A stretch of DNA of 64,000 nucleotides, taken from positions 16,065 to 80,064 of the forward strand of contig MIYX01000001.1 of assembly GCA_001875365.1 (NCBI GenBank), given 5' to 3'. The position numbers and the translations under genes are program-made. Source of the stretch: Marine Group III euryarchaeote CG-Epi4. GTDB taxonomy: Archaea; Thermoplasmatota; Poseidoniia; MGIII; CG-Epi1. Positions 18,955 to 33,041 of this stretch are shown piece after piece (the first letter of the stretch is position 1; each line of letters starts with the position of its first letter). Below the pieces are notes generated by a model. It ran no database searches. It was given only the letters and a program-made list of their open reading frames with translations, and was not told where the DNA came from.

Positions 18955-21900
18955 TTGTCCAGAGCCATAACACAAATAATTCTGCTGATTTTTTTATTAA
19001 ATTTGCTTTTTCCATTTGCCCAACCATCTGAAGAGGTACAATCCATTCCATTGACCCATCTTCATTTAGTTGACGACAGATTGGAAATTGTTTACGATGA
19101 CACTTCTTTGTCTGAAGAATTGGGTTTAGTAGAGTCTCCCGAAGGTAAAATTGACTTATTTGCCAGAGTTTCAGATTTAAATGACGGTCATCATGATTTT
19201 GTTGAAAATCTAGGGGGCGTTATCACTTCTAGTTTTGACAGATTTAATACATTTGGATTTATTATAGATATTGTAAAAGTTCCGGACGTAGTCTATTTAC
19301 CTAATTTGGAATGGTTAGAAGCGAACGTTCTATTTTATCCTACACTTGATAACAGTGTTGAATCAATAGGGACTAGTGAAATTTGGGATGATTTTGGATT
19401 TCGAGGAGAGGATACCACAATTGCTATTCTTGACACGGGCGTAGACTTTGAGCATGAATCCCTAGATGATTTAGATGACATTTCATCAACTTATGACCCC
19501 AAGATAGCTATTGATTCAAATGGTATGCTAGGATTTTATAATGCAAATACAGATCAAGAATATCCAAACGAGCAACCTCATGATTCGGGTAGCCATGGTA
19601 CTCATTGTGCAGGCATAGCTGCAGGAACAGGAGGTTCCAGTGGGCAGTATGCCGGTGTTGCTCCTCAAGCTAAGGTGGTGGGAGTCATAGCTTTAGACGG
19701 AGGTTCAGGTGACGAGGGAGATTTACTTCGAGCCGTTGATTGGACAATACAAAATAAGGACAGATTTTCAATTGATGTAATGTCTCTTTCATTAGGCGGT
19801 CCTGTAGTTATTCCAGGAGCAACTAATAATGGGGCCTCTTCAATTTCTCAAGCATTAGATGTTGCAGTCGAAGCCGGTATTGTTACAGTAGTTGCAATAG
19901 GAAATGGAAACTTAGGTATAGCGGCACATCCCGGTTCGGTATCTTATCCTGGAGATAGCGTAAAATCAATTACAGTCGGATCAGTCAATGATGATCACTC
20001 AAGAGAGATTTACTCAAGTAGAGGACCTACTGGGGACGGACGTCTAAAACCAGATGTCATGGCTCCCGGGGGAGCTATAATGTCAGCTCAAGCAAATTCG
20101 GGAGATGGGTATGTCTCATATTCTGGTACGTCAATGGCTACACCTCATGTTGCAGGGGTAGCTGCGCTCATGCTTCAAGCCAACCCAAATATTAGTCCTA
20201 CTTCAAGTACAGATTACGTAAAGCAGATTCTTAGAGAAACCAGTGATCATAAAGTTCCATTAGACATAGATTGTGGAGAATTTTTTTCACCTAATAATTG
20301 CTATGGTTGGGGCACTGTAGAGTTGGTAGGTGCAGTTTCACGTTCAATGAATCTTAAAACTGCAGATCTAGCAGGAAACACAGGCATTCAATCGGAAACA
20401 AGTGAGACGTTTGAGGCCTCTATTACATACACTAAAACAGAATATACTAATCGTGGTAAAGATGGAGGAACTATCAATAATTTTATTCAAGGAAATGATT
20501 TGCCTGACAACGTCAATATTATAGCTACGTATTCGAGTAATTGGCCAAAGCCAAATACTTTTCTGCTTGATTCAGGCGAAGGTACAGGAATTAGCTCAGA
20601 AAGTAGTATAACTTCAGTTTATGAGCAAAATGGTAATTGGGTTTTAGAAGCTAATTTTAACTTTACAGGTTCAGTTTCTGCAGGAAACACAGTAGATAGT
20701 TTTCCTAGTTTTAAGTTTGATATAATGGCTCCAGATTTCGATGAGGCAATTCCTTTGACAGTTTTTTATTCTATAAACGACATGTTTGGAGATTCTAAGA
20801 ATTTTACTATTGCTTCATTTACAGATCTTCCAGATCTTTTTATTGAAGAGGTCGTTATTTCAGAAAGTCTTCTCGAGGGTCAAACTACTCCAATAACTGC
20901 TAGAGTTGTCAATCAGGGCCCGGGGCCAGCACGTGAGTACCAACTTAACTTTTTCAATGATGGCGAATTATTTGAATCAATAATGGTTAGCGATAGGTTG
21001 AATTCAGAAGAGGCGTTTAACGTTCAAACGGAATGGACAGCAGTGAAAGGTAATCATGAGTTATCAATCGAGATAATCACAGTGGTTCCTCAAGATCAGA
21101 TTGAATCAAATAATTACTTCTCACTTGATGTGACAGTTTCAGAATTTCAAGACATGCAGCCACCATTAGTATTCATAAACGAACCTGATCAAAATGAGAT
21201 AGTCTCTGAAATAGTTGTGGTAAAGGGAAGTGCGAGCGATAATGTCAACTTAGAATATGTTGAAGTGAGGTTGTTACCCAATGATTGGGAGAGAGCCAAT
21301 GGTTTTGAAAATTGGTTTTGGTCATGGAATTCTAGTAACGATTTAAACGGTAGATATACAGTTCAAGCGCGCTCATTTGATGGTCATAATTATTCTTCAA
21401 TATTTTCTATAGAGGTAGAGGTGACAAATGAAGGTTCCAATCGTAGACCTACTGCCTCTTTGACTTCAAATTTTAATGAAGTATATGTTGGTGAAAATAT
21501 CATTTTTTCAGGCAATGGTTCCACAGATGATTCAGAAGTAGTCAAATATCAATTCATCTTTGGAGATGGACGACAAACAGATTGGAAAGCTGATTCGTGG
21601 GTGGAATATTATTTTGAAGGTTCTGGTCAGTTCGAAGTTACTTTAAATGTCGAAGATGATGAAGGGGCGCGTTCTTCAGCTGGAGATTCAATTTTGATAG
21701 AGGTTAAAGAAAAGCCAGTAAACAATCCGCCAGTAGCCAAGATATTCTCTCCAAATTCTGGTGAGGACTTTAGAAATGATGAATTAATTCGATTTTCAGC
21801 GCAAGGATCAAGCGATCTTGATGGAGATTCAATCAATTTTGTTTGGTATAGTAGTTTAGATGGAGAGATACTGAGGACTTCGTCCATTATGGGGGAAGCT

Positions 21901-22098
21901 ATCCTTTCTCAAGGCACTCATGTCATAACTTTAAGAGTTGTAGATTCCCAAGGTGAATATTCAGAGCTATCAATACAGATCTCAGTTTCTTTATCTGTCG
22001 AATCATTTGATTCAGATGATAGTACGTTGAGCTCCTTCAGCTTCTTAGTTTCAACTTTACTTTTTATAACTATTTCGCAAATTCGACGAAAATATTAA
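18955..22098 (+). CDS. Secreted subtilisin-like serine protease with PKD domains
   Basis: 1047 residues, TTG start right before a signal peptide (about 1-24). A propeptide-like region runs to about 130. The S8 catalytic domain follows with Asp160 (AILDTG), His214 (GSHGTHCAG), oxyanion Asn317 (AIGNGN) and Ser393 ([11 protein letters not shown]). Then comes a beta-rich region with a CARDB-like part at about 620-720, a Big-type region, and two PKD-like domains (FGDGR... at about 860; a second at about 920-1010). The C-terminus is a membrane helix followed by RRKY, so the protein is probably anchored to the cell surface. It likely degrades dissolved or particle-bound protein outside the cell. It begins 36 bases after the tRNA. 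Confidence 0.92.
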
Positions 22099-22493
22099 TT
22101 TCCTTTAAATTCTACTCTCGAAACTTCGTTTTCCCACAGAACTAATTTTACTAAGTCGCAAATTTTATTTTTATTTTCATCAAAATTCCATTCATCGTTA
22201 AAATGTTTATACAAATTATTCCAAATCCATTCAACAAGAACTTCACTGGTAGGATTTTCAAGTCCTTTGATATCATTTAAATAATTGTGATCAATTAAGT
22301 TGTAAGTTGGTTTAATTGCAGATTCAATATGTCCAAAATCTATTACGAAACCAGTTTCAGGATTAACTTTGCCTTCGACGTGCACTTCTAGTTTAAATGC
22401 TAAACCATAAACGTTTCCACAAGGGTGCCCTTTTGGGACTTTTGGTAATTTCCTTGCAGATTCAAATCTTACGATTTGGACTAATTTATGCAT
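22095..22493 (-). CDS. QueD/6-pyruvoyltetrahydropterin synthase homologue without zinc ligands
   Basis: 132 residues, colinear with bacterial QueD (6-carboxy-tetrahydropterin synthase). [42 protein letters not shown] and EWIW all line up. The reactive Cys (Cys25), the Asp68-His69 pair and a C-terminal Glu are kept. The three zinc histidines of the family are gone: the one in AAHRLP is Arg14 (SARKLP), and HGH is Tyr29-Gly-Leu31 (VYGLAF). It should therefore not bind the catalytic zinc. It is coupled to the MBL hydrolase gene (stop/start TAATG). The role is open: an altered pterin/deazapurine enzyme or a non-catalytic partner. Confidence 0.85.
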
Positions 22494-23269
22494 TATAATT
22501 CAATAACTTCGCCAGCGTCAGGCATAATCCATCTTCTTTGCCTATACTTTTTTAGAATGTCTTTTTTGTCTTCTCTAAGTTTTCTGTTTAGATGTATAAG
22601 TGCCATCTTCTTTGGCCTTGCCATATCATCTAGTCTTTCTAATTGTTGTAGTGAGCAATGTGTTTTCGTTCCAATAGTCACGGTTTCACCTCTTGGATTC
22701 TTTACAGTCCCATCATTTGTATATGCTTCGTGTACCAATAAATCTGCATTAGTGTAAAGTTTTGATGCTGTTGGCGTAAACATTCCATCACCAGAATAGC
22801 AGAAAACTTTTGTCGGACTTCCAGCTTCAAGTCTTAGCCCTAGATTTTGAACAGTATGCCTAGTATTAACTACTCTCAAGTTCCAATCGTCCCATCTGTG
22901 TGATCGTTGTAGTTCTCTGAATCTTAGCGTAAAAGGAAGGTTTGCAACCATACCGTGATATGCGACTTCCATAAGTCTTTCAACATTTCTTTGTGTTCCC
23001 ACAGGTCCAAATAAATAAAAGGGTCTTGTCCGTCCATCTTCCCACATTCTCATCATAAGGGAAGGTAAGCCAAAAACATGATCTGCATGAAAATGTGAAA
23101 TGAAGATTCCATCAAGATAATCTGGCCTTTTAGATTGATGCCATACTGAAGGTGGAGCCGTTGCACCGCAATCAACTAACATTCTTCTTCCTGCAGCTTC
23201 TACCAAAATACAGGTATGAGTATTATTCTCATCAAAAGCTTCACCAACGCCTAAGAATGTAACTTTCAT
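22493..23269 (-). CDS. MBL-fold metallo-hydrolase (RNase Z-like)
   Basis: 258 residues with the metallo-beta-lactamase fold. FLGVGEAF opens the sheet; the metal motif is SHFHADHVFG (HxHxDH). A third-ligand His lies in VNTRHTVQNLG, an Asp in YSGDG, and late His in IHLNRKL. The general plan resembles RNase Z, but the long flexible arm of tRNase Z is not obvious, and the pairing with a QueD-like gene suggests a small-molecule hydrolase instead. A 26-codon leader ORF ends at its start codon (TAATG), so translation is probably coupled. The stop shares a base with the QueD-like start. Confidence 0.8.
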   Translation of the reverse strand: MKVTFLGVGEAFDENNTHTCILVEAAGRRMLVDCGATAPPSVWHQSKRPDYLDGIFISHFHADHVFGLPSLMMRMWEDGRTRPFYLFGPVGTQRNVERLMEVAYHGMVANLPFTLRFRELQRSHRWDDWNLRVVNTRHTVQNLGLRLEAGSPTKVFCYSGDGMFTPTASKLYTNADLLVHEAYTNDGTVKNPRGETVTIGTKTHCSLQQLERLDDMARPKKMALIHLNRKLREDKKDILKKYRQRRWIMPDAGEVIEL

Positions 23270-25193: not shown

Positions 25194-26228
25194 ATGTCTT
25201 TATCTCAAACGTGCCTTTATGATGAGCATGTAAAATTAGGCGCAAAAATGGTTGACTTTGCAGGTTGGCATATGCCAATTCAGTATAATAGTATAGTTTC
25301 TGAGCACAATGCGGTAAGAGATAGAGTAGGCATTTTTGATGTTTCGCATATGGGTCAAATTTTTATTTCGGGAAAAGATGCATCTTCCTTTTTATCTTAT
25401 GTTACTACCTGGGACATAAACAAATTATCTGATGGAGATTGTCGCTATTGTCACATACTTGACAATGAAGGCCAAATAATCGACGACACCATAGTTTACA
25501 CATTTAGTAATCAAGATTACATGTTGGTACCTAATGCCTCTATGATTTCAAAAGTTCTGGATTGGTTAAATCTTAACTCTTCCAATTTTGAAGTTAATAT
25601 TCACAATAAGTCTGAGGAGTTTTTTTGTCTTGCAGTCCAAGGTCCAGAATCACTCAGACTTTTAAGACAATATTTTAATTTGTCAATTACACCCTTTAAA
25701 TTGATTAAATCGGATAATTTGATTATTAGTGGAACTGGTTATACTGGTGAGAAAGGCTATGAGATAATGGGACCAATATCTGAAAGTCAAAGAGTTTGGG
25801 AATCATTCCTAGGAATGGGAGCTATACCTATAGGTCTAGGGGCTAGGGATACTCTTAGACTAGAGAAGGGATATCTTTTGTCAGGAACCGATTTTAATGG
25901 TTCGCAAACAACACTTGAATCTGGTTACTCATGGGTAATTGATTGGAATCACGATTTTATTGGTAAGGAAAGACTTCTAGCACAAAAAAGGGTAGAGTAC
26001 AAGTCTTTGAGAGGAGTTTTACTTGAAGAGCGTGGAGTTTTACGGCCAGGATTGGAAGTTTATTTTGAAGGTGAAAAAATATCAGAACTTACTAGCGGCT
26101 CACTATCCCCTATATTAAAGAGGGGAATTGGACTCTCATATACAGACTTGCCAATTGGAACTACGGTTAATGTGTCAATACGTAATAAACAATTAAAAGG
26201 GCGCGTCATTCAGACTCCATTCTTATGA
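25194..26228 (+). CDS. gcvT: Glycine cleavage system T protein (aminomethyltransferase)
   Basis: 344 residues. GcvT transfers the methylene group from the H-protein aminomethyl-lipoyl arm to tetrahydrofolate, releasing ammonia. Typical blocks: DFAGWHMPIQY, VGIFDVSHMGQI, TNGQ-like region DGDCRYCHIL, VQGPES, SGTGYTGEKGYEI and GARDTLRLEKGY (folate-binding Asp region), with GKE further on. The C-terminal beta-barrel is complete. The gene starts 20 bases from the divergent aIF1A start. It overlaps gcvH by 4 bases. The P protein is not in this window. Confidence 0.92.
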   Translation: MSLSQTCLYDEHVKLGAKMVDFAGWHMPIQYNSIVSEHNAVRDRVGIFDVSHMGQIFISGKDASSFLSYVTTWDINKLSDGDCRYCHILDNEGQIIDDTIVYTFSNQDYMLVPNASMISKVLDWLNLNSSNFEVNIHNKSEEFFCLAVQGPESLRLLRQYFNLSITPFKLIKSDNLIISGTGYTGEKGYEIMGPISESQRVWESFLGMGAIPIGLGARDTLRLEKGYLLSGTDFNGSQTTLESGYSWVIDWNHDFIGKERLLAQKRVEYKSLRGVLLEERGVLRPGLEVYFEGEKISELTSGSLSPILKRGIGLSYTDLPIGTTVNVSIRNKQLKGRVIQTPFL

Positions 26229-26602
26229 GCGAAATACCGGATAATTTAGGCTACACTGAAGACCATGAATGGGTTGGACCTGACAAAGGAGACGGGGTAA
26301 AAGTGGGAATAACAGACTATGCTCAGGATTCACTTTCTGATGTTGTTTTTGTAGAATTACCTAACGTTGGAGATGAATATCAAAGAGGCGAAGTTATGGC
26401 TATAGCCGAATCAGTTAAGGCAGCTAGCGACATTTATGCGCCTATTTCAGGTAAGATTTTAGCTATAAATGAGAAATTGGAAGAATCTCCAGAATTAGTC
26501 AACGAATCTCCCTACGGTTCCGGTTGGATGGTTTTAATGAAACCTTCAGAAGACAGGTCTGCATTGCTAGATTCTGATTCATACAAAAATTCTCTTGATT
26601 AG
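26225..26602 (+). CDS. gcvH: Glycine cleavage system H protein
   Basis: 125 residues. It is the lipoyl carrier that shuttles the aminomethyl group between P, T and L proteins. The lipoylated Lys65 lies in AIAESVKAASD. The N-terminal YTEDHEWV and the GITDYAQDSLSDVVFVELP block are diagnostic. It is coupled to gcvT (ATGA overlap) and its stop overlaps the next TTG start. Confidence 0.95.
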   Translation: MSEIPDNLGYTEDHEWVGPDKGDGVKVGITDYAQDSLSDVVFVELPNVGDEYQRGEVMAIAESVKAASDIYAPISGKILAINEKLEESPELVNESPYGSGWMVLMKPSEDRSALLDSDSYKNSLD

Positions 26603-27578: not shown

Positions 27579-27719
27579 TGTCCAAAATACAAACCAGTAA
27601 GTTTTTATATTAGTTATTGGAAAACTGGGTATTCTTTTATTAAGGCCTTGTCAATGGTATGTAACCGTTTACCTTGATGGTAATATGGTAATAGGACAAA
27701 ACGCGAAGGTGTGCAAAAT

Positions 27720-30700
27720 ATGAATACAAACGTATCAAAATCAAGTTCCCTGCAAGGGAAGATGATGGCAATTCTCGTTGTCGCTTTATTTGCACTTAGC
27801 AGCTTTTCTGCTATGGTGTCAGCTAGCGATGATGTAGATGAAGAAAAAGAAATAACCTCGGGAATAACCCTTGGTGAAGCATTAGTCACAGAGTCTGAAG
27901 GAGAAATTCAAATTATGAGTGAATCTAATCCAGTCTCAGATTATGACGGCGGAGATCTGCCAATTGCTGTGAGTATGGCTGAGGGTAAATTTTCTCCAGT
28001 CAGGCAAGATTCTGGTGAGGCTAAAGTTCTCCTTATGGATGATGATGCAGAAAACTGGATGTCAGGTCCATGGCTAGAGGCATCACATGTTGCTACTGCA
28101 TTAAACGATGGTGGCTATTCTTATGATGTTTTCAGAGCTGGAGGTTGGGATGGTGTGACAAAAGAGTTACCATCAGGTAACACAGGTCTATCTATCATTG
28201 ATGATTATGAAGTTTTACTTTGGTATGGTGGATGGCACAACGGCCTTATTAGTTCTGGTGAGCAAGCAATTGTTGAAGATTATCTAGACGGCGATTGTGG
28301 ATCTGCAGATACTTTCTGTACAACAAATCGAAACATTATTGTTTTAACGCAGAAGGTTGATTGGTTCGATTCACGCTCAGGTAATTTTGAAAATACGTAC
28401 ATGCATGCTGATACAGTCGGTTCAAGTTACATGGTTGTTGGAGGAACCTCTAACCCGATGAAAGGAGTTTCAGGCTCTATTTTTGAAGGAAAGGAGTTTT
28501 CAACTGATACGGCTGGAGTTCATTACCTTGATAGGCCTTGTGGGATTAAACCAACGGGTCCTGAAGCCGTAGGTGCATTTTGGTTTGACCAAAGAAAAGG
28601 TGCAGCAGATGGGCATGAATATCACGCAGTTCAGTTTCCATCCGAAACATATGCAGGCACACAAACACACAAATCCTTTTTGTTTGCAGATGAGATAGGT
28701 GTCTTTGATAAGAGATCAGATAGAGCTGATTTCTTCGCATCAATTTTATCATGGATGGAAGTTACACAAGAAAGTACTAAAAATGTAGACATTGGAATTG
28801 GAGGTTTAGATATTCCTAACCATGTCCAGTATTGGAGATCAATTGAAGCTATGGAACCGGTTGACATTAGTGTCACAGTAACAAACTTTGGAATGTTACC
28901 TCAGAGTAGTACTGCTGTAAAGTTAAAATTAAAGAATCAATTTGGTCAAATTTTATTTGATAGCACATTTGATACACGTGCTTTCCCTTCTGGCCACCCT
29001 ATGCACATTGAAGATTCTATGCAAAACGGGGATAGTATTGTCTTTACCTTTAATAAAACGAACGACGCACATCAAAGAACATATGATGGTTTAGATCCTA
29101 ATAAAGCTAGGGATGTTCTCTTTACTAGTGCAGGTATGGATGTTTTGACAGTTCAAGTGTTTCATACAGGAGACCAAGGATCTCCAAATGATTTTATTCA
29201 GGCCGATGTTGGAGTAGGCAAGTGGATTGATACTTTAGAAGAAGCTGAAGATGAGATTGGAAAGACAGGAACTTTTGGAGATACTACAGATAATGGAGCC
29301 AATAGTTTTGAAGGTCAAAACATGCACAGAACAAGCAGTTATGATTGGAATGCAGATGGCTGTGGATATTTTGATAATGATGAAGAAACTTGTACTGCTA
29401 ATAATCATGATGTGAATAAGACAGTTAACTCGGTTTACCACGAAGGTAAATCTTCTTTAGCCATGTTTAATACGAGTGGTTGGTACAAAACAGGTGCAAA
29501 TCCAAATATATGTGAATGGGGAGATGACTCATTGTCTGATTCCAATTGTCCTAAATTTGCTATGCAGCCTAATCAAGATGATTACTATGTTTCACCAGCC
29601 ATGGATTTGAGTGCTATGGAAGAAGTTGTAATCGGTATGCTATTCACAGGCTGTATGGAGTCTGGTGATTACTTCCGCATGCAAATATCAACAGATGGTG
29701 TACAATTTACTAACTTAATCAGTTATTCAGGTTTCTGTCCTGGAGAGGGATCATGGTATTTATGGGGAGGTTCAAATCAGAAATATCAAGGATACGTATT
29801 AAGTGATAATTACTACGGAACTGATGAAACCGACACAGTATATTTCAGAATTCAAGCTGATGCAGACGGTGATCAAAATACGGAAGGCAGCAGGCCTTAC
29901 GCAGGTTGGTTTATTGATGAAATTGTTTTCCGAGGAACTGAGAAAATTACCAGAGATGTGGCTGTCGGTGATGTCACCGTTGATAAAGATTTTGAAGTAA
30001 AGCCTGGTGGTGATTCATTATGGAGAGAAGCTAATGCAACAATAATCAACGCAGGTGAAACTTCATGGACAAGTTTGGGAGTAAGATTTACTGTAAGTAA
30101 TTTGCAGGGTGAAGATGTTACCGATTTCTTAGATATGAGTGAAGGAACTATAAGTACATTAGATGGTAATTCAATTTATGGAGACATAACTAAGAATGCA
30201 GATCAAAAAGATCTATTTACTGAGTTTAGGTGTCCAGGTGCAAATACTTACTTTTTAACAGTAGATGTTATTGTTCCATCAGGTAAAGATTTCTTCCCAT
30301 GGAATAATTCCAAAACAGTATCATTCCGTGTGTTTGACAATTTCTTTTCAGATGACTTCGATACGGGAGATAGATCAGACTATGAGTATACAGAAGTTGG
30401 ACGGTTAGATACAGGCAGTCAATATAACCGATGGTTAATCCGTTCTGAAGGAAATAACGCTTACAGCGGTCAATATGTGCTCCAGTATGCTAAGGAAGGA
30501 ACTCATAATGATAATACTCCGACTACAATAGGTGGCCGTGACGACAGTTACATTACGCAAGATCAGTATGATCGTGATGGTGAGGGTAGCAAGTGGCAAC
30601 CTGATGTTAACGTAGATCTTCGAGCAGCTTTCAAGCCTTTAATTATGTACGCAATTAAATGGGATTTGGCAGCAGGAGATAGGCTTGAAGTTCGAGCATC

Positions 30701-33041
30701 AACAGACTTTGATAGTGCACAAAAAATTGGTGGAACTGAAACCTGGACTGTTGTTAAGACTTATGAAAATAATTGTGCCTGTCCGATGTTTAGTGAAGAT
30801 AAAACTACTTGGATTTTGGAAGAATTGAGTCTTGAAGCCTTTGAAGGTTATCAAACTTGGATTGACTTCAGGGTAGTCACTGCTAACGGCGGAGGACAAG
30901 GAGTTCTTATCGATGATATAGCAGTGATTGGTAATGAATACAGAAATAATGTTGACATCGTAGATGTTGATACTGTTAGGTATTCAGCATCAGGAGAAGA
31001 ACATGATCTATCCGTTACTGTTAGAGGCATTGGTCTTGAAGATCAAAGTGGAGTTACAGTTGCAGCCAGGATTACTGATTCTAACGGCCTTCGTGTATGG
31101 CCAGCAGATAGAACATTTAATTTCTTTACAATTCCCGTTTCTCTTGCTAAAGGTGAAGATTTCACAGTTGACCCTGATACAGCTGGAAGTGACTGGAAGT
31201 GGGGCTCAGATTTAGCTCCAGGAATTTACAGAATGCACATTCAAGCTTTGAGAGATGATAATGTTCAAGTACCTGATGAAAGTCCAGCTAATAACTTCAA
31301 AACAATAACTTTAGTTTTAGGTGCAGCTTTGCTTACTGGTGAACAGTGGACAATGGGAGATGGCTGGAGCGCAGGTTCCTACATATGGGATGGTTCAGAT
31401 GATGGTTCCCTGACTTCTGAATTCTTCACAGTTTGGAATAGTAGGCCATTTTTGGTTGTTGAAGCTGAATATGAGTTAATTGATGCCAGCGTCAAAGCAC
31501 AAGTGAGAGCAGGTAACACCGGACCTTGGTATGATGTTAAATGGCGAGCTGCAGATCAGTTGGCTTCTTTATACTCTATACCTTCAGCTAACTATACCCA
31601 GTTACCTTTGGCTTGGGAAGGTAGCAGTGCATTTGATAACTCAACTGCCCAGACTTTCTTTGCAGATTTAGGTGCAGTTGAAGAATTAGGGGATGGTTCA
31701 GGAAGTCTTCAAGATGCTTACATTGGAAGTGATATGCAAATTCGTTTGACTGGATACAGATCAGGTCCTAGTGCCTCAGGAATGTTCAAGGCATATTATC
31801 CATCAGTATTCGGTTTGGATGATTACTCAGTAGATTTGAAAGATATATCTCCTAAGACCCAGAATGGTGAACCTTCATCTCTAACAGGAGACACTGTAAG
31901 TAGAACATATACCGTAAAAGTCAATAACTTTGGTGCTGCATCAGATTCTGGTGTTGTGGACTTTGTTTTGACTGCACCAGATAATTCCTTTGTTGAATTG
32001 TATGATGGAACTATGGCAATTATGGATTCTGTACTTCAAACAGGTAGAGACACTTATGTCGCAATTAAGCCAATAAGTGGATCATGGGGTAACGGAAGAG
32101 ATGACTTGTCCGGCGGTGATCAGACTGCATACATTAACTCAGATGGTCAAATAGGTTGGCCTAGTGGAAATGTGGACACCGGTCAACCAACTGGATGGGA
32201 AATAAGTAATCCTACTAAGACTTCGTGGAACTCTGTAGATGGAAAGCCTATGGAACCTAGTGCAGCTAATTTTGTAAGTCCAGGTCAAGTAATGACAGTA
32301 AATATTGATGTAAGTATAGGATATGCTCAATGGGCGCCTCCAGGTACTTACAGTATACAAGCTGATGCAAGATCTTGGTCCGACTACGACAACACTTTCA
32401 CGAGTGGAGATTCTGATGGTCAAGCAACCATGATAATTGCAAAACCAGACCTTTCAATAGGTAGTGATGTAAGATATATTTCACACGCAACAGGTTACGG
32501 AGAATCAGGTGCAGGTTGGGTTAAGAAGACAGGATGTGTTAACAACCCAGCAGCTAATAACCCATGTGAAACCGATGAATACTTCAGATTCATGTTCCAA
32601 GTAGAAAATACAGGAACTGAGACTGTAGGTACATTTAGAGTAGGTCTTCTTGATTTCGAAAGTAATCCACTTGGAGTACAAGTTGGTCTTTATTGGACTA
32701 GCTCAGGTTGGGCTATAGACAATACGAAGACGACAGCATATGGAGCTGAGATTGTACAATTAGGTAATAAGAAATATATTGCTTTCGGAGCATTAGCAAG
32801 TGAGTTAGGTATGTCTGCAGGTCCTGGTGATGATAGTACGGGATCTTATGACTTCTATCTTGCAGTTGATACAGAGGATACTGTTTCTGAATCCAACGAA
32901 AACAACAACAGATATCCTGTAACAGTTACAGCTGTCAAAGAAGTGAACACAGTTCCTTCCTTTGGATTGTCGTTGTTAAGTATGTCAATTAGCGGTCTCT
33001 TGGCTGCAATTGGAATTGCTCTAAGGCAAAAAGAAGAATAA
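27720..33041 (+). CDS. Giant secreted surface protein (1773 residues)
   Basis: The ATG at 27720 follows an AAGGTG Shine-Dalgarno-like sequence at 27706-27711; the frame extends back to a GTG at 27711. A signal peptide ends near MVSASDD. The N-terminal domain (about 95-350) resembles a class I glutamine-amidotransferase/flavodoxin-like fold (VLLMDDDAENW, VLLWYGGWHNG). Next come repeated beta-sandwich domains: jelly-roll/MAM-like units (AGWFIDEIVF and GVLIDDIAVIG) and CARDB-like units, the last ending ESNENNNRYPV. The C-terminus has VPSFG, a membrane helix and RQKEE, like archaeosortase-processed tails. It is strongly acidic and probably an abundant cell-surface or S-layer-associated protein. 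A long leader of about 85 bases may precede it (TATA at 27601-27612). Confidence 0.8.
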   Translation: MNTNVSKSSSLQGKMMAILVVALFALSSFSAMVSASDDVDEEKEITSGITLGEALVTESEGEIQIMSESNPVSDYDGGDLPIAVSMAEGKFSPVRQDSGEAKVLLMDDDAENWMSGPWLEASHVATALNDGGYSYDVFRAGGWDGVTKELPSGNTGLSIIDDYEVLLWYGGWHNGLISSGEQAIVEDYLDGDCGSADTFCTTNRNIIVLTQKVDWFDSRSGNFENTYMHADTVGSSYMVVGGTSNPMKGVSGSIFEGKEFSTDTAGVHYLDRPCGIKPTGPEAVGAFWFDQRKGAADGHEYHAVQFPSETYAGTQTHKSFLFADEIGVFDKRSDRADFFASILSWMEVTQESTKNVDIGIGGLDIPNHVQYWRSIEAMEPVDISVTVTNFGMLPQSSTAVKLKLKNQFGQILFDSTFDTRAFPSGHPMHIEDSMQNGDSIVFTFNKTNDAHQRTYDGLDPNKARDVLFTSAGMDVLTVQVFHTGDQGSPNDFIQADVGVGKWIDTLEEAEDEIGKTGTFGDTTDNGANSFEGQNMHRTSSYDWNADGCGYFDNDEETCTANNHDVNKTVNSVYHEGKSSLAMFNTSGWYKTGANPNICEWGDDSLSDSNCPKFAMQPNQDDYYVSPAMDLSAMEEVVIGMLFTGCMESGDYFRMQISTDGVQFTNLISYSGFCPGEGSWYLWGGSNQKYQGYVLSDNYYGTDETDTVYFRIQADADGDQNTEGSRPYAGWFIDEIVFRGTEKITRDVAVGDVTVDKDFEVKPGGDSLWREANATIINAGETSWTSLGVRFTVSNLQGEDVTDFLDMSEGTISTLDGNSIYGDITKNADQKDLFTEFRCPGANTYFLTVDVIVPSGKDFFPWNNSKTVSFRVFDNFFSDDFDTGDRSDYEYTEVGRLDTGSQYNRWLIRSEGNNAYSGQYVLQYAKEGTHNDNTPTTIGGRDDSYITQDQYDRDGEGSKWQPDVNVDLRAAFKPLIMYAIKWDLAAGDRLEVRASTDFDSAQKIGGTETWTVVKTYENNCACPMFSEDKTTWILEELSLEAFEGYQTWIDFRVVTANGGGQGVLIDDIAVIGNEYRNNVDIVDVDTVRYSASGEEHDLSVTVRGIGLEDQSGVTVAARITDSNGLRVWPADRTFNFFTIPVSLAKGEDFTVDPDTAGSDWKWGSDLAPGIYRMHIQALRDDNVQVPDESPANNFKTITLVLGAALLTGEQWTMGDGWSAGSYIWDGSDDGSLTSEFFTVWNSRPFLVVEAEYELIDASVKAQVRAGNTGPWYDVKWRAADQLASLYSIPSANYTQLPLAWEGSSAFDNSTAQTFFADLGAVEELGDGSGSLQDAYIGSDMQIRLTGYRSGPSASGMFKAYYPSVFGLDDYSVDLKDISPKTQNGEPSSLTGDTVSRTYTVKVNNFGAASDSGVVDFVLTAPDNSFVELYDGTMAIMDSVLQTGRDTYVAIKPISGSWGNGRDDLSGGDQTAYINSDGQIGWPSGNVDTGQPTGWEISNPTKTSWNSVDGKPMEPSAANFVSPGQVMTVNIDVSIGYAQWAPPGTYSIQADARSWSDYDNTFTSGDSDGQATMIIAKPDLSIGSDVRYISHATGYGESGAGWVKKTGCVNNPAANNPCETDEYFRFMFQVENTGTETVGTFRVGLLDFESNPLGVQVGLYWTSSGWAIDNTKTTAYGAEIVQLGNKKYIAFGALASELGMSAGPGDDSTGSYDFYLAVDTEDTVSESNENNNRYPVTVTAVKEVNTVPSFGLSLLSMSISGLLAAIGIALRQKEE

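Follow-up and report, generated by a model that had tools for sequence, protein, structure and literature searches.

The window, which is the whole stretch of 64,000 nucleotides analyzed here, contains on its reverse strand two coupled genes, one for a small protein of the PTPS fold, belonging to the clade referred to below as RYGL, and one for a hydrolase of the metallo-beta-lactamase fold. The features are as follows:

22095..22493, reverse strand: RYGL-clade PTPS-fold protein of 132 aa, with R14, Y29 and L31 at the zinc-ligand positions and with C25, D68-H69, T82 and E121 kept
22395..22427, reverse strand: diagnostic motif H-P-C-x-x-x-Y-G-L-A-F (residues 23-33), which spans the catalytic Cys25 and both replaced His of HGH
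22493..23269, reverse strand: metallo-beta-lactamase-fold hydrolase of 258 aa, RNase Z-like and under the RNase Z cut-offs, with HxHxDH recognized by eye

The stop codon of the hydrolase gene and the start codon of the RYGL gene share one base (TAATG). At its other end, the RYGL gene converges with, and overlaps by four bases, a gene for a 1047-aa protein (18955-22098) that is subtilisin-like by eye, and a similar large neighbour follows the RYGL gene in most of the inspected archaeal loci. Genes for KH, RIO and eIF-1a proteins lie upstream, in an order that by eye is the same in the archaeal loci that are long enough. The window also contains gcvT and gcvH (25194-26602), about 2.7 kb from the RYGL gene, and a gene for a very large protein of 1776 aa (27711-33041).

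Fold and the replaced zinc site

Both PTPS and QueD, the latter a tRNA-modification enzyme (6-carboxytetrahydropterin synthase), are zinc enzymes of the classical kind. The product of our open reading frame scores 82.8 bits against the Pfam PTPS model (PF01242), whose curated cut-off is 22.4, and so belongs to this superfamily, with a T-fold of the PTPS type. A preliminary description of this DNA had claimed a gap-free alignment to bacterial QueD around the active site, and phmmer bears this out for residues 6-94, both against P. aeruginosa 2oba and against E. coli QueD, while a family-profile alignment to E. coli QueD covers nearly the whole length. In these alignments, the zinc-binding H16, H31 and H33 of E. 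coli QueD correspond to R14, Y29 and L31, whereas the other active-site residues compared are retained: C25 corresponds to C27, D68-H69 to D70-H71, and E121 to E110. An alternative alignment with His ligands placed elsewhere in the fold, which the same description had named as grounds for abandoning its claim, was looked for and is ruled out by the E. coli QueD profile alignment and further comparisons. Wherever they go beyond PMC7546909, the roles that we give to the aligned positions are those that we presume for E. coli QueD. The parts of that study drawn on here (PMC7546909) describe, for Plasmodium PTPS, a metal held by three His in a site between adjacent monomers and a Thr and a Glu on the pocket floor that serve substrate binding; a title that it cites names an intersubunit catalytic triad.

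Measured against what defines a QueD, the protein is a mixed case. It has the catalytic Cys, the Asp-His pair and the ring-binding Glu (C25, D68-H69, E121), but none of the three His ligands, and it reads CGNVYGL where QueD has CxxxHGH and where the folate-type PTPS-III has ExxHGH. Its score against the NCBI QueD equivalog TIGR03367 is 76.7 bits, below the cut-off of 89.25. In a controlled run with this model, six of six RYGL clade members fell below the cut-off (74.5-81.3), whereas both zinc-type QueD controls exceeded it (115.4 for P0133 and 113.0 for P0136). The score says nothing on zinc alone, since of two proteins in which only the first zinc His is replaced by Arg (R-HGH), one (P0122, 82.8) is also below the cut-off with its HGH intact, and the other (P0138, 99.7) is above it.

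Conservation, descent and distribution of the RYGL clade

The protein search returned 222 matches, the best 120 of which supplied the rows used here. Excluding nine shorter rows from 121 left a set of 112 rows with 117 aa or more, the window's protein included, and conservation was taken from this set because the others were partly selected by motif. R14, Y29 and L31 occur together in 109 of these 112 full-length rows from the best 120 of the 222 matches. Among the 109, D68, H69 and T82 are invariant, and C25 and E121 are each found in 108, with one gap at E121. The loss of all three zinc ligands and the retention of Cys25, Asp68-His69 and the C-terminal Glu, both of which the preliminary description had read from one protein, are thus traits of a clade. 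One of the three remaining rows, P0024, resembles a normal QueD at its start and the archaeal part of the clade at its end, and is a chimera by eye; the other two (P0013 and P0096) have, also by eye, differing N-terminal parts. In a wider set, which includes 26 locus proteins picked via the motif, 133 of 136 rows are R/Y/L.

The gene is under purifying selection. Ten pairs compared with a Nei-Gojobori script gave dN/dS values from 0.065 to 0.224, one of them (L022/L024, dS 2.2) being near saturation. These values, together with R/Y/L in 109 of 112 rows, rule out both sequencing errors in the contig and gene decay, in agreement with the earlier statement that this is not a decaying gene.

We compared the clade position by position with 33 zinc-type QueD rows, using clade rows that were partly chosen by motif and that include some proteins twice. 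Clear differences are found at R14, P24, Y29, L31, A32, L35, L117, L119, N122 and V127. The QueD rows have Lys at position 24 (32/33), Ser at 32 (32/33), Thr at 122 (33/33) and Cys at 127 (33/33). Two of the clade-specific changes flank kept residues, P24 adjoining Cys25 and N122 adjoining Glu121. V5, V118 and R126, also flagged by the script, are present in many QueD rows and were excluded.

A clade with R/Y/L at these positions, which the preliminary description had proposed to look for, was found and is monophyletic. A 103-row tree places all 39 RYGL rows on one side of a branch with support 100/100, and when the motif columns were masked, the 18 RYGL rows kept in a 65-row tree again formed one group; the computations thus support a single origin. 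The clade adjoins zinc-type QueDs from the phylum of genome G003, its nearest neighbour being weakly supported (88/48). Within it, 21 rows, including the window's protein, form one group (84/91) next to several bacterial branches, which suggests that the gene may have passed from bacteria to archaea.

The R-HGH variant of QueD shares with the RYGL clade the replacement of the first zinc His by Arg and a Pro at position 24 (14 of 14 R-HGH rows), but it keeps HGH intact and forms a separate group in the trees. A joint clade of both types is not rejected (p-AU 0.238), so the tree test neither supports nor rejects a stepwise loss of ligands through R-HGH. Such proteins are encoded at L085, L088, L089, L091 and L097 in four archaeal carriers of the RYGL gene (G004, G010, G017 and G030), examples being P0122, P0129, P0131, P0132, P0138 and P0141, and also at L151. 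Other ligand variants were seen in P0153 (HGN) and P0155 (HGS).

To locate carriers, the degenerate DNA pattern for HPCxxxYGL[AS]F was run on genome_contigs, with one genome per species and 84,980 species. It matched 36 stretches, of which 33 have a true open reading frame; the other three (L018, L026 and L034) were dropped. Because variants like the Y-G-Q of G307 escape the pattern, these counts are lower bounds. The 33 carriers comprise 18 archaea and 15 bacteria, and 31 of their genomes are marked as MAGs (the exceptions, L022 and L024, are probably single-cell genomes). The archaeal genomes measure 0.7-1.3 Mb. Four are labelled marine group III and two more MGIII, the rest being labelled Poseidoniia, Poseidoniales (L016) or Euryarchaeota; from their shared gene order and small genomes, we infer that all 18 belong to Marine Group III. 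We know of no archaea of this ocean group in culture. The loci closest to the window are L005 and L023, with 94% identity in the RYGL protein and 98-99% in the hydrolase, and L023 (genome G022) is labelled Marine Group III CG-Epi1. The bacterial labels are Myxococcota, Myxococcales, Deltaproteobacteria, Polyangiaceae and Sorangium, one genome being named just "bacterium".

In the phylum of G003, 155 of 282 sampled genomes have a match; among the matches listed, nine have at least 68% identity and the next has 53%. Of 21 lower matches inspected, 20 are H/HGH and one (L151) is R/HGH. In the class of G022, 20 of 243 sampled genomes match, namely the 18 known carriers, a weak match in G326, and G307 (63%). 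The G307 protein (L195:1498-1860) has R/Y/Q instead of R/Y/L, with the hydrolase partner upstream as in the other archaeal carriers, so Leu31 is not strictly required. The sample of this class also includes genomes of about 1 Mb with no match, and the gene need not be present throughout Marine Group III. A phage origin was considered and rejected: the HPCxxxYGL motif has no match in viral_contigs, and the four records of the phage collection that match the RYGL protein are all below 60% identity and each cover less than 80% of its length.

Gene neighbourhood and pathway genes of the carriers

A relative of the hydrolase lies directly upstream of the RYGL gene in all 18 archaeal pattern loci; it is cut at the locus edge in L006 and L031 and whole in L054 and L056. 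The window's copy is above the cut-offs of Pfam Lactamase_B_2 and Lactamase_B and under all those of NCBIfam, with 115.4 bits against the RNase Z model (cut-off 292.95) and a resemblance to the cyclic-nucleotide phosphodiesterase model as well. The bacterial loci that were fetched showed no such partner. There, the next gene in six of the 15 bacteria (G011, G018, G026, G028, G031 and G033) encodes a CxxxHGH PTPS of 177-182 aa. These tandems stand at L067, L068, L069, L070, L071 and L072, and the second protein of L072 shows a weak similarity to Wolinella WS1659 (3jyg, E 4.7e-5). Nine proteins from the bacterial loci were scanned and found to be Methyltrans_SAM, RNase HII family, aminopeptidase P, inositol-phosphatase family, the second PTPS, MutS domain V, MopE-type repeats and an esterase, with one lacking a match; they reveal no pathway, and the neighbours vary between genomes. 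Apart from the second PTPS of the six bacteria, no queuosine or archaeosine genes were recognized by eye beside the RYGL gene in the inspected loci.

Genes of pterin and queuosine metabolism were searched for in the 33 carrier genomes, where a single absence from a MAG is weak evidence and may be a gap. The archaeal carriers have FolE (GTP cyclohydrolase I) in 6 of 18 genomes, MoaC in 3, a partial FolB in one, TGT in 15 and ArcS (PF17884) in 13. HPPK and QueF above the cut-off were found in none of these 18, and FolE2/MptA in none of the 33. FolE went undetected in 12 of the archaea, and neither FolE nor MoaC was detected in 10. QueC requires some caution: its cut-off of 22 bits was passed by 25 of the 33 genomes, and we counted only the strong or partial matches (11 genomes), presuming the others, with about 19-29 bits over short stretches, to be other ATP-pyrophosphatases. 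Strong matches were found in five archaea and a partial one in G007, so that the co-occurrence of FolE and QueC expected around a QueD is absent from most archaeal carriers. The bacterial carriers have FolE and HPPK in 15 of 15, FolB, a second PTPS, TGT and MoaC in 14, QueF above the cut-off in 5, and a full QueC in 4 in addition to a partial one in G033. Four bacterial MAGs (G032, G013, G003 and G015) have a QueD of the E. coli type with intact ligands, and neither a strong QueC nor a QueF was found in them.

As to whether a normal QueD accompanies the RYGL protein, the 33 related genomes are mixed. The RYGL protein is the sole PTPS found in eight of the 18 archaea (G006, G008, G009, G012, G016, G019, G020 and G022), whereas in five others (G005, G021, G023, G024 and G029) FolE, QueC and a CxxxHGY PTPS are encoded on one contig. 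The operon of G021 (L093:7991-10389) has the genes of preQ0 synthesis in the order folE-queE-queC-queD, with QueE recognized by eye and a QueD with HGY, in which the third zinc ligand is Tyr; the order of the preQ0 pathway steps is given in the parts of PMC13329287 drawn on here. Its FolE, QueE, QueC and HGY PTPS, used as tblastn queries, have no match within the window.

Because FolE is undetected in 12 of 18 archaeal carriers and five have a different QueD together with folE and queC, the synthesis of CPH4 by the archaeal RYGL protein appears unlikely. Even with possible gaps in the MAGs, a need for dihydroneopterin triphosphate would be difficult to reconcile with the pattern across these genomes. 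Two other roles were rejected. A fourth archaeosine synthase, by analogy with QueF-like, is not needed where ArcS and TGT are as frequent as given above, and in bacteria a substitute for QueF is not indicated either, since QueF is above the cut-off in five carriers and not in the other ten, and the RYGL gene tracks neither state.

A putative zinc-free enzyme and its known relatives

The computations support the fold, the loss of the three ligands, the retention of the Cys, the Asp-His pair, the Thr and the Glu, purifying selection and a single origin; from these sequences, the protein would have no zinc site. The best explanation, to which we give about an even chance, is that RYGL is a T-fold enzyme that is active without a metal, has changed its substrate and derives from a zinc-dependent ancestor of the QueD type. 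The preliminary description had spoken of a pterin synthase without zinc that may have a new reaction or a regulatory role. A new reaction does seem the likeliest, because in most archaeal carriers the searches found no source of the QueD substrate and because another QueD shares a contig with folE and queC in five of the 18; the label "pterin synthase" is not established, and the regulatory role is kept as a rival. The presence of FolE in every bacterial carrier counts against a changed substrate, since the normal substrate of QueD is available there.

In the mechanism that we propose, the zinc site would have been lost as a unit from the QueD-type ancestor, while the hexameric assembly of the PTPS type would be retained. 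A flat ring, pterin-like or purine-like, would be held through Glu121 and Thr82, and Cys25 with Asp68-His69 would perform acid-base or cysteine chemistry across the boundary between subunits. Arg14 and Tyr29 would fill the old metal cavity, with charge and hydrogen bonding in place of the Lewis-acid role of zinc; they might, for instance, hold a side-chain oxygen or a phosphate. In archaea, the reaction would be other than CPH4 synthesis from home-made dihydroneopterin triphosphate, and the coupled hydrolase probably acts in the same pathway. Folate is probably used, since GcvT and GcvH are encoded near the RYGL gene in the window, yet HPPK was found in none of the archaeal carriers and FolB in one, in part, which leads us to propose pterin or folate salvage. 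The folate would probably be imported, and the most likely class of substrate, stated with low confidence, is a salvaged or side-product compound of the pterin or folate type. We hold more tentatively, at somewhat under even confidence, a broader formulation, in which RYGL is a T-fold enzyme that works without zinc and catalyses a new reaction, perhaps one that lies outside pterin biosynthesis. Its metal site would have become, as a whole, an Arg-Tyr-Leu set while the remainder of the active site was retained, and it would have been passed between Myxococcota and Marine Group III, where it would work with the RNase Z-like hydrolase.

Loss of the catalytic metal is commonly a mark of a pseudoenzyme, and RYGL could be one, devoid of catalysis and serving as an oligomer that binds a ligand or acts as a scaffold, for example as a pterin or purine sensor or as a partner of the hydrolase. 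That a single partner gene is tightly coupled to it at all 18 archaeal loci is in keeping with such a role, which we nevertheless judge unlikely: a pure scaffold would not need the near-invariant Cys25, Asp68, His69, Thr82 and Glu121, and no copy of the partner gene turned up in the bacterial loci fetched.

We attach little probability to a second proposal, that RYGL joins a zinc-bearing PTPS paralogue as a heteromer subunit and lends its Asp-His or its ring-binding residues to mixed sites. The tandems in six of 15 bacteria would fit it, as would a PTPS site built between adjacent monomers (PMC7546909, in the part drawn on above), but RYGL is the sole PTPS found in eight of 18 archaea, nine of the 15 bacteria have no adjacent PTPS gene, and where a paralogue is adjacent it belongs to a distant type.

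Zinc is scarce in the open ocean, and a low-zinc isozyme of QueD, making CPH4 without zinc or with another metal, would suit the bacterial carriers, 15 of 15 of which have FolE and 14 another PTPS. The parts of PMC2770081 drawn on here describe paralogues of QueD that belong to Zur regulons and whose induction under zinc depletion is predicted, but these keep their zinc-binding residues. Furthermore, FolE/FolE2 and a strong QueC were not found in most archaeal carriers, and the clade members fall below the QueD equivalog cut-off (6/6), making a zinc-sparing QueD quite improbable.

A metal bound at another site, through Cys25, His69, His23, His38 and Tyr29, is also very doubtful: the first four are invariant or nearly so, and His38 (109/109 in the clade) occurs in just 9 of 33 QueD rows, but His23, Cys25 and His69 vary just as little in QueD, where we take them not to be among the three zinc ligands, no clade-specific position listed by the script is His, Cys, Asp or Glu, and His38 would be expected to face the other side because it shares the strand of Y29 and L31 at an odd spacing.

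On the reading of RYGL as a zinc-free enzyme, a clade without the metal ligands whose remaining site is under purifying selection offers a natural test of the purpose of the metal. It points to a further reaction in ocean archaea, and the database name "6-carboxytetrahydropterin synthase" (as for P0105) may be wrong for these genes.

Compared with QueD (PTPS-I; E. coli 4ntk/4ntm/3qn0), RYGL has all three zinc His replaced and, relative to the 33 QueD rows, Lys24 changed to Pro, Thr122 to Asn and Cys127 to Val. The types PTPS-II to PTPS-VI belong to the same family, COG0720, and are told apart by motifs around HGH (PMC5041015, PMC5445326). In the parts of these sources drawn on here, the first gives CxxxHGH for PTPS-I, CxxxxxHGH for PTPS-II and ExxHGH for PTPS-III, and calls the function of PTPS-V unclear, while the second adds the "PTPS-II-like" clusters CxxxxHGH and CxxxHGY, and FGPAQ for PTPS-IV. 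These published motifs, of PTPS-I to PTPS-IV and the PTPS-II-like clusters, keep His-Gly-His or His-Gly-Tyr (FGPAQ in PTPS-IV) and none is CxxxYGL; RYGL might conceivably be PTPS-V. Among titles and the beginnings of abstracts, no paper on a zinc-less PTPS or QueD was recognized, the key COG0720 paper being outside this coverage. FolB and uricase are more distant, with at most 16% identity to RYGL over the aligned part. Neither is known to have the Cys and Asp-His arrangement of PTPS. Both are precedents for metal-free chemistry on pterin or purine rings in the T-fold.
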